Source of the DNA: Nonomuraea sp. MG754425
GTDB lineage: Bacteria; Actinomycetota; Actinomycetes; Streptosporangiales; Streptosporangiaceae
NCBI RefSeq assembly: GCF_021699195.1
Contig: NZ_SSXE01000017.1
Coordinates: 124,001-188,000, forward strand
Length of the DNA: 64,000 bases
Direction: 5' to 3'
Positions 9,291 to 10,771 of this stretch are shown one piece after another. How positions within the stretch are numbered: the first letter of the stretch is position 1; each line of letters opens with the position of its first letter. The position numbers and the translations under genes are program-made. The notes beneath the pieces were generated by a model. It was not told where the DNA came from and made no database searches. It saw nothing but the letters and a program-made list of their open reading frames with translations.

Positions 9291-9457
9291 GGGGACGCAT
9301 TCCTCCACGACCGATCGTCGAGACCAGCGTAGGCACGAGATCGAGCACGACGGAGCGGTTTCCGCTATTCACCGTCGCCTTCGAACCTCTCCGGGCAGTT
9401 CGGCGAACGAATGCTTCGACACCGGACAAGTCAGCGGCTTGCCGGCGCGGCGCGTGC

Positions 9458-9463
9458 TACGGT
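9458..9463 (+). promoter_or_regulatory. Candidate -10 element (TACGGT) of the leader transcript
   Basis: TACGGT fits the actinomycete TANNNT -10 pattern and ends 7 bases before the ATG of the leader peptide, which would make the leader mRNA essentially leaderless. No convincing -35 is seen at 17 bases. Confidence 0.4.
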
Positions 9464-9470
9464 CGGGATC

Positions 9471-9521
9471 ATGCAGCGCGCTTTCGTCACGACGACGCCG
9501 GACACCGTCCCGGCGCGCTGA
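9471..9521 (+). CDS. Thr-codon leader peptide (16 aa) controlling the downstream ThrRS gene
   Basis: ATG to TGA encodes MQRAFVTTTPDTVPAR. Codons 7, 8 and 9 are three consecutive ACG threonine codons and codon 12 is ACC, so a quarter of the peptide is Thr. It stands directly in front of a gene for threonyl-tRNA synthetase and is followed within 10 bases by a strong GC hairpin. This is the classic layout of ribosome-mediated transcription attenuation: a ribosome stalled for lack of Thr-tRNA at codons 7-9 would change folding of the RNA and let polymerase read into the synthetase gene. The peptide itself is not expected to have a function. Confidence 0.75.
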   Translation: MQRAFVTTTPDTVPAR

Positions 9522-9530
9522 TTTCCTGCT

Positions 9531-9550
9531 TCCCGGGCGGACGCCCGGGA
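9531..9550 (+). terminator. Attenuator hairpin between Thr leader and ThrRS gene
   Basis: Perfect 8-bp stem, TCCCGGGC (9531-9538) and GCCCGGGA (9543-9550), closing a GGAC loop. It begins 9 bases after the leader stop codon and lies 36 bases before the ThrRS start. There is no T-run, so termination would rely on the stem alone, as in many actinomycete terminators. Confidence 0.7.
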
Positions 9551-9586
9551 GCCTGGTCGTTCGCCCTTTCCTCGAAAAGGATGATC

Positions 9587-10771
9587 ATGAACGACCACCG
9601 CAGGCTCGGCCGCGAGCTGGGCATCTTCGACACCGATCCGCTGATCGGCTCCGGCTTGCCCTACTGGCTGCCCGCCGGAGCGGCCGTGCGCAAGGCCGTC
9701 GAGGACTACGTGTACGAGCTCGAACGCCGCAACGGCTACCAGCACGTCAACTCGCCGGTCCTGGGCAAACGCGAGTTGTACGAACGGTCGGGCCACTGGG
9801 CCCACTACGCCGAGGACATGTTCCCGCCCATGCGGGTGGGCGGCGAGGAGTTCGTGCTGCGGCCCAGCCTGTGCCCGCATCACGCGCTCATCTACCGCTC
9901 GCGGCAGCGCAGCCACCGTGAGCTGCCGTTGCGGCTGGCGGAGCTGGGCGGCATGTACCGCTCCGAACTGTCGGGCGTGCTGGGCGGGCTGAGCAGGGTG
10001 CGAGCCATTCAGCTCAACGACGGTCACGTGTTCTGCGCGCCGGAGCAGGCCGCCGGGGAGGTGTCGGCCGCGCTCGGCCTGATCGAGGCCGCGCACCGGC
10101 GACTCGGCGTCCGGGTCGCCCGCTACCGGCTGTCGCTGCGCGGCGAGGGCGCCAAGTTCGTGGACGACCCGGCCATGTGGGAGCGCTCGGAGGCCGTCCT
10201 GGGCGACGCGCTGGAACAGCACGGCCACGCCTACGACGAGGAACGCGGCGAGGGCGCGTTCTACGGCCCGAAGATCGACATCCAGATCGCCGACCCGGCG
10301 GGCCGCGAGAGCACCCTGTCCACCGTCCAGGTCGACTCCTTCCAGCCCGAGCGCTTCGACCTGCGCTACGTGGGCGGCGAACGACCCGTCATGGTGCACC
10401 GCAGCGTCGTCGGCGGCATCGAGCGGCTGGTCGCCCACCTGCTCGACCTGTACGGCGGCGCCTTCCCCGCCTGGCTCGCGCCGGTGCAGGCCGTCGTGCT
10501 GCCGCTGTCGGACGCCGAGTTGCCCGCCGCCTCCGACGTGCTGCGGCAGTGTCTGGAGGCCGGGTTGCGGGCCGAGCTGGCGCCCTCCGACCGGGGCAGT
10601 CTGGGGGCCAGGATCAGGGCGTACCGGCTGGTGCCGTACCAGCTCGTGGTGGGGCCGCGCGAGGTGGCGAGCGGGCGGGCGGCGGTGCGGTTGCGTGACG
10701 GCGGGCAGGCGGGCGAGGTGCCCGTCGGCCAACTCGCCGCACAGTCCCGACCGTTCGGACCCGGCCACTAG
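9587..10771 (+). CDS. Short threonyl-tRNA synthetase (catalytic and anticodon domains only)
   Basis: 394 residues, against ~640-690 for ordinary ThrRS: the N-terminal TGS and editing domains are absent. Class II motifs are intact: motif 2 RLAELGGMYRSE (~116-127), motif 3 region VVGGIER (~274-280), and the three zinc ligands that select threonine, Cys96 (LCPHH), His147 (DGHVFC) and His271 (VMVHR). The C-terminal ~100 residues form the HGTP anticodon-binding domain. The start at 9587 follows AAAAGG by 6 bases; an in-frame ATG at 9581 is too close. Preceded by a Thr leader peptide and hairpin. Editing-less ThrRS paralogs are known as second copies expressed under Thr starvation, or as self-resistance to ThrRS inhibitors (borrelidin, obafluorin). 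It should charge tRNA-Thr in the cytoplasm. Confidence 0.9.
   Translation: MNDHRRLGRELGIFDTDPLIGSGLPYWLPAGAAVRKAVEDYVYELERRNGYQHVNSPVLGKRELYERSGHWAHYAEDMFPPMRVGGEEFVLRPSLCPHHALIYRSRQRSHRELPLRLAELGGMYRSELSGVLGGLSRVRAIQLNDGHVFCAPEQAAGEVSAALGLIEAAHRRLGVRVARYRLSLRGEGAKFVDDPAMWERSEAVLGDALEQHGHAYDEERGEGAFYGPKIDIQIADPAGRESTLSTVQVDSFQPERFDLRYVGGERPVMVHRSVVGGIERLVAHLLDLYGGAFPAWLAPVQAVVLPLSDAELPAASDVLRQCLEAGLRAELAPSDRGSLGARIRAYRLVPYQLVVGPREVASGRAAVRLRDGGQAGEVPVGQLAAQSRPFGPGH

Follow-up and report, generated by a model that had tools for sequence, protein, structure and literature searches.

A conserved threonine-codon leader with attenuator-like pairings precedes an auxiliary threonyl-tRNA synthetase gene in Nonomuraea

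Organization of the locus

The window analyzed here is a whole stretch of 64,000 nucleotides of DNA from Nonomuraea sp. MG754425 (contig NZ_SSXE01000017.1). On its + strand lies a gene for an auxiliary threonyl-tRNA synthetase (ThrRS) of 394 aa (9587..10771, ATG at 9587, stop codon at 10769-10771), preceded by a short ORF containing consecutive Thr codons and by a GC hairpin, designated H2. The gene product, already taken for a ThrRS in a preliminary description of this DNA, scores 415.8 bits against NCBIfam thrS (cutoff 383.65), and Pfam returns tRNA-synt_2b and HGTP_anticodon and nothing else; judged by these matches, the enzyme consists of catalytic and anticodon-binding domains only and is without TGS and editing domains. 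Alignment with a solved ThrRS (1nyq) shows that a Cys and two His residues, which we take to be the zinc ligands, are kept. The Shine-Dalgarno sequence (SD) of the ORF is AAAAGGA. The host genome (11.3 Mb, 641 contigs) encodes a second, longer ThrRS elsewhere, with 42% identity to the short one. The nearest named relatives of the short enzyme, among the best 80 of 268 loci, are from Nonomuraea species and [Actinomadura] parvosata, with identity up to 89%.

The predicted leader ORF (9471..9521, + strand) encodes MQRAFVTTTPDTVPAR in 16 codons and ends in TGA. Its sensor codons, ACG ACG ACG (9489..9497), are followed by a further Thr codon, ACC (9504-9506), in agreement with the three Thr codons and a fourth first reported for this ORF. 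Among the Thr codons in five ORFs of the window, ACG accounts for 48 of 152. The -10 element TACGGT (9458..9463) is located 7 nt 5′ of the leader ATG at 9471, and the leader mRNA is accordingly predicted to be leaderless.

H2 (9530..9551, loop GGAC, -17.8 kcal/mol), whose two arms are referred to below as regions 3 and 4, is a terminator-like hairpin without a T-run. Its core is a stem at 9531-9538/9543-9550 with the 4-nt loop GGAC, extended by an outer T-G pair. The core stem begins 9 nt after the leader TGA, and about 35 nt separate H2 from the ThrRS ATG at 9587. The preliminary description had it as a perfect 8-bp GC hairpin 9 bases past the ORF; spacing and length stand, but the core pairs are seven G-C and one T-A.

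Conservation and association with ThrRS

A protein search of genome contigs yielded 268 confirmed loci, of which the best 80 were retained. The leader and hairpin are present in 73 of these 80 relatives (L004-L074, L078, L080), so that the upstream alignment that had been proposed as a check bears out conservation of the Thr run and stem next to short ThrRS genes. The run itself is replaced by Thr-Ser-Thr in L005 and by Met-Thr-Thr in L064. Among the best 80 of 268 loci, genera with the leader include Nonomuraea, Planobispora, Planomonospora, Microbispora, Thermocatellispora, and Streptomyces as well as Kitasatospora, Streptacidiphilus, Yinghuangia, Kutzneria, Actinocrispum, and Dactylosporangium. 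Judged from these genomes, the arrangement of leader and hairpin is conserved across several actinobacterial families. Seven of the 80 relatives are without the leader, and in six of them the sequence further upstream seems, by eye, to be coding. One of the seven, L081 from a metagenome bin, has another leader-like ORF with LTTPES located 98-143 nt before the ThrRS match; its ACCACC codons seemingly fall within the 5′ arm of a hairpin that is followed by T6. This ORF may represent a Thr attenuator that is distantly related or has arisen by convergence.

A covariance model built from 28 leaders and run on 394 genomes of the class matched 81 of them at E 0.001. Matches above 60 bits number 58 (family labels f1, f4, f17, f18, f19), and 57 of them, the window's own included, precede a short ThrRS gene, while the remaining one lies at a contig end. 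One strong leader match 90 nt from a contig end (L087, G234:C18) has no ThrRS match in the stretch examined, for which either the contig end or an insertion could account. Conversely, a short ThrRS is found at E 1e-118 in 62 of the 394 genomes, and 60 of these carry the leader: 57 as strong matches, G196 as a weak match, and G200 and G209 by reading. In the other two (G152, G292) the contig stops 106 and 57 nt upstream of the ThrRS match. A conserved, testable RNA device thus appears to accompany the spare, editing-less ThrRS wherever the upstream sequence is readable (60 of 62, with two cut off). Conservation in 73 of 80 relatives and specificity for ThrRS in 57 of 58 strong matches rule out chance or artefact, as had been supposed at the outset from the match between codon and enzyme. 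A leader on the housekeeping thrS of the host was also rejected: the model has a single match in the host genome, at the window's own locus, and no such leader is seen by eye 5′ of the long ThrRS gene.

Matches below 40 bits number 28, and 13 of these were inspected. Three (L142, L143, L147) are true or variant Thr leaders, and seven (L144, L148-L153) look by eye like chance. L143 and L147 are variant Thr leaders before a seemingly full-length ThrRS gene, in two genomes of the family where a short ThrRS is not found at the cut-off applied; it is as if the leader had been relocated to the housekeeping ThrRS gene. Three further weak matches are aromatic-codon leaders: L141 (G232:C1:2563396-2563505, + strand), L145 (G206:C19:539231-539336, - strand), and L146 (G330:C37:22158-22269, - strand). 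Each has a TATAGT box, a leader ORF, and a GC hairpin, followed by a gene whose product starts MVIV and which looks like DAHP synthase, an identification we presume. The L141 leader peptide reads M-Q-R-K-F-W-R-F-Y-G-Y-R-P, and its hairpin is followed by T6.

The statistics below rest on 140 examined loci, of which 131 have a leader by the Thr-codon pattern and 7 have none; the two loci before a long ThrRS gene (L143, L147) were set apart, and removal of 9 duplicates left 122 distinct leaders. ACGACGACG occurs in 117 of the 122, an invariance that is partly built in because the pattern used to locate leaders itself draws on the Thr-codon region. The start codon lies 3′ of a TANNNT box in all 122, at 7 nt in 94 and at 6 nt in 28, with the script choosing the start that has the box where a leader offers several in-frame starts. 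The comparison fits the earlier suggestion that the leader may be leaderless.

Alternative pairings in the leader RNA

The leader can fold in mutually exclusive ways. Region 1 (9474..9501) consists of CAGCGCGC (9474-9481, codons 2-4) and CGCCGG (9496-9501), which flank the Thr codons and pair with region 2 plus the stop codon. Region 2, GTCCCGGCGCGC (9507..9518), pairs either with region 1 or, as an antiterminator, with the 5′ arm of H2. The leader hairpin formed by region 1 with region 2 and the stop has a folding energy of -23.0 kcal/mol in the window and a mean z of -1.83 over the 122 leaders. Its outer part stems from the start-proximal CAGCGCGC, which encodes Q-R-A and is complementary to GCGCGCTG at the stop. 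Watson-Crick runs of at least 7 between the start- and stop-proximal parts occur in 93 of 122 leaders, compared with 11 of 122 after shuffling of the 5′ part. Dactylosporangium keeps a CAGCGC/GCGCTG pairing in another frame, and L142 has CAGTGC/GCACTG.

These pairings bear on whether the product of the ORF might instead act as a small protein, or as an arrest peptide that responds to a drug, with the ORF being no codon sensor. Many leader peptides do share an M-Q/K-R-A start and a P-A-R end, as such a protein might, but the CAGCGCGC:GCGCGCTG pairing explains these recurring ends. The length before the Thr run varies, and the end of the peptide is altered in L098, L137, L142, and Dactylosporangium, yet ACGACGCCGG and CCGGCG are kept, exactly or nearly. 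Because the peptide end changes while the RNA motifs persist, a function of the peptide itself is very improbable.

The competing antiterminator, for which a fold of the leader RNA had been suggested, was found. With the RNA covered to 12 nt past the first base of the first Thr codon, the assumed position of a waiting ribosome, and with the transcript end set just past the H2 loop, region 2 forms at least 8 pairs with region 3 in 121 of 122 prefixes; this 2:3 antiterminator has an energy of -15.8 kcal/mol in the window. Covariation between regions 2 and 3 was not found (own pairs -18.32, permuted -18.59), since both strands are nearly invariant. By folding, the 1:2, 2:3, and 3:4 pairings exclude one another and are placed such that a ribosome on the sensor codons would release region 2.

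Control by a T-box or another known riboswitch can be set aside as practically negligible. The T-box reportedly controls the thr genes of B. subtilis, and, in the available part of one comparative study, it governs most synthetase genes in Firmicutes (PMC1262725). However, no Rfam family reaches its gathering score anywhere in the window, and the best sub-threshold match within 9430-9620 is to an unrelated family (E 0.11), so that this candidate is ruled out by the missing covariance match.

Termination at H2

The H2 stem is often 11-16 bp long among the leaders, but in 115 of 122 no T-run of at least four follows within 10 nt past the last G-C pair, and none stands behind H2 in the window. 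H2 alone therefore does not show termination, and the output may be partly translational. The preliminary description had called the element an attenuator; the attenuator-like stem is indeed conserved, but the T-run is mostly missing and a second hairpin masks the SD of the ThrRS gene. Termination may be neither the sole nor the main output.

Two simpler readings differ from the one preferred below in output only. The first is attenuation of transcription alone, with H2 as a terminator that works without a T-run and with the SD hairpin and the loop complementarity as incidental features. The 1:2, 2:3, and 3:4 geometry that it needs is present, and it has company in print, as trpS and leuS attenuators are predicted in Streptomyces in the available part of one study (PMC1262725) and an auxiliary TrpRS gene is described as being under transcriptional attenuation (Vecchione and Sello 2010, as far as available). 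The scarcity of T-runs speaks against it, whereas the aromatic leader L141 does have T6. The second reading is attenuation of translation alone, in which H2 would be non-terminating and the leader ribosome would decide whether the ThrRS SD is masked. The missing T-run favors it, but the length of the H2 stem goes beyond the need of such a switch. Further evidence on both comes from the sequence between H2 and the ThrRS gene.

A hairpin over the ThrRS Shine-Dalgarno sequence and a shared strand

The SD is predicted to be blocked not by H2 (3:4) but by a separate hairpin spanning the SD and start codon (9554..9597). In it, TGGTCGTTCG (9554-9563) pairs with TGAACGACCA (9588-9597), which includes part of the ThrRS start codon, and TCCT (9569-9572) pairs with AGGA of the SD (9578-9581). 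Compared with dinucleotide shuffles, the sequence from H2 to codon 6 has a z of -2.83 in the window and a mean of -1.63 over the 122 leaders, and in 104 of 122 pairing covers at least 60% of the SD. Within this hairpin, element B (GGTCGTTCGCCC, 9555..9566) can pair with the ThrRS start region, element C, or alternatively with element A (9535..9543), the top of the H2 5′ arm and the loop; the A:B duplex has an energy of -19.8 kcal/mol.

The loop and element B vary together among the leaders. The most frequent combinations are GAGT/ACTC (40), GGAC/GTTC (12, with one G-U), GAAC/GTTC (9), GAGC/GCTC (9), and GAAT/GTTC (6), and mismatched combinations occur as well, e.g., the loop GAGC with ACTC in 5 cases. 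In a first A:B test by loop class (24 classes), own pairs average -16.6 kcal/mol versus -14.2 for permuted pairs, and 0 of 200 permutations reach the own value. A flexible-register duplex test with 300 permutations used 82 relatedness-reduced representatives of the 122 leaders. It gives -19.07 kcal/mol for B:C versus -16.70 with C permuted (z -7.8) and -18.47 versus -16.40 for A:B (z -9.6), with 0 of 300 permutations reaching either value; the 82 representatives still share ancestry, which the permutations leave in, and six control pairings that involve upstream or coding sequence, serving as a check, range from -0.9 to +2.4, while A with C gives -1.5. In a rigid, ungapped register the B:C value is reached by 76 of 500 permutations (not significant) and the A:B value by 19 of 500 (weakly significant), a weakening we attribute to register changes caused by insertions. 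For the 11 representatives of the Nonomuraea type, which includes the window, own B:C pairs (-16.36) are no better than permuted ones (-16.48).

Transcription control alone would not require B to covary with A as well as C, which counts against that reading; attenuation of translation alone, on the other hand, gains from this covariation and from the stability and extent of SD pairing. At equilibrium, the SD has the same mean pairing, 0.79, in the antiterminated and the free state, and the difference exceeds 0.3 in 0 of 122 leaders. Folding thus does not free the SD in the antiterminated state, as control of transcription alone would have it, and leaves it masked in both states, which argues against control of translation alone. 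An equilibrium switch in which 2:3 pairing would release the SD by way of A:B is likewise unsupported, and a pseudoknot of closed H2 with B was set aside, as the loop mostly has only four bases. Imposing A:B in the 85 of 122 leaders whose loop has four bases and where six pairs are possible raises the energy on average by about 6 kcal/mol relative to the antiterminated state and by about 21 relative to the free state; pairing of the SD then amounts to 0.68 versus 0.77. Because the SD stays paired, A:B could act only briefly during transcription, before C is made, or could have another role. On this evidence, attenuation of transcription alone is a possibility to be held tentatively, and attenuation of translation alone is a slightly less likely one.

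Relation to known systems

The leader as such is already in print. In S. lividans TK24, thrL (SLIV_19412) precedes thrS (SLIV_19410), has a mapped leaderless start, and encodes the peptide MKRVRPFLETTPGFVPAR; the available text of that report describes one hairpin and no uridine-rich sequence and leaves the mechanism open (Droste et al. 2021, PMC8079986). A pattern from part of the thrL peptide, run on 392 Streptomyces genomes, matched two (L160, L161); both encode exactly MKRVRPFLETTPGFVPAR and carry H2, B, and the SD hairpin, and the downstream ThrRS starts DHRRLGREL.... Sequence identity of this kind indicates that the window leader is the same element as thrL: both are Thr leader peptides, leaderless in thrL and predicted to be so in the window, before a gene for a Thr-tRNA ligase, with one hairpin and no uridine-rich sequence, and differ, as far as that report is available, in that thrL has two Thr codons in a row and the window leader three. 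The mechanism proposed below is a candidate answer to the point left open there, namely how a single hairpin without a uridine-rich sequence would act. The available text of the thrL report (PMC8079986) was found to contain neither a comparative analysis nor any mention of an SD hairpin or of complementarity to the loop.

In the preliminary description, regulation of a synthetase through codons for its own amino acid had been thought less familiar, a view that does not hold, since leader-peptide attenuators of Streptomyces leuS and trpS were predicted in 2005 (Seliverstov et al. 2005, PMC1262725) and thrL was listed in 2021 (PMC8079986). The leuS and trpS attenuators resemble the present system in having a cognate-codon leader peptide before a synthetase gene and antiterminator and terminator hairpins, but, according to a figure legend, the leuS terminator is followed by poly-U, whereas H2 in the window has no T-run; for threonine operons, the available part of the same study reports no conserved RNA structures (PMC1262725). 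The LEU element 5′ of actinobacterial leuA, as far as described there, also has a leader peptide, alternative structures, and pairing with the SD of the structural gene, but in that case it is the Leu codons that pair with the SD, and the authors propose a pseudoknot (PMC1262725); the window system instead has B, a strand distinct from the codons, with the SD region and the hairpin loop as its alternative predicted partners. Mycobacterial polycysteine ORFs (Canestrari et al. 2020, as described in the available part of PMC9031893) are leaderless, as is predicted for the window leader, with a run of cognate codons that controls downstream genes, and differ in the amino acid, which is Cys.

As far as comparison of genomes can tell, the Thr-codon attenuator on the auxiliary ThrRS gene is real, conserved, and of a kind already known. 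A further relative is the auxiliary TrpRS gene of Vecchione and Sello (2010), which reportedly belongs to Streptomyces and is said to be under ribosome-mediated transcriptional attenuation; according to what is available of that work, it too is a spare synthetase under leader attenuation, with tryptophan in place of threonine and transcriptional output. New here are the attenuator geometry, the hairpin masking the SD and start of the ThrRS gene, and the anti-SD strand that covaries with both the SD region and the H2 loop. In the open-access literature searched, no description of an SD hairpin/loop exchange was found for thrL or for synthetase attenuators.

Proposed mechanism

It is highly probable that the leader is part of a ribosome-mediated attenuator that senses charged tRNA-Thr through its Thr codons and sets 2:3 against 3:4 pairing upstream of an auxiliary, editing-less ThrRS gene. 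The enzyme is most likely switched on when charged threonine tRNA runs short, and the likely inducer would be such a shortage as may arise in threonine limitation or from ThrRS inhibitors. The level of output, transcription or translation, is less certain. The covarying layer that masks the SD makes a partly translational contribution likely.

Translation of the leader would begin at the very 5′ end of the mRNA. When Thr-tRNA is sufficient, the ribosome would reach the stop codon, region 2 would be covered or folded onto region 1, and H2 (3:4) would form; transcription would then end at H2 or, failing that, B would pair with the ThrRS start region and mask the SD. When Thr-tRNA is short, the ribosome would wait on ACG-ACG-ACG and hide region 1. 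Region 2 would then pair with the 5′ arm of H2, letting RNA polymerase continue into the ThrRS gene, so that the enzyme is produced. In addition, element A in the loop of H2 may, through B, transiently unmask the SD while transcription is under way.

A two-tier attenuator with one sensor, in which the waiting ribosome would set first H2 and then, via the shared strand B, translation of the ThrRS mRNA, is put forward only tentatively. If it is correct, the exchange among A, B, and C would be a fail-safe layer that covaries across several actinobacterial families and has seemingly been rebuilt with other letters in L157 and L158. These two loci (genus label g80, family f19) show, by eye, the same three-element arrangement: GAGCCC occurs twice, once in the hairpin's 5′ arm and once within the SD (GGAGCCC), and GGGCTCC lies between the two.
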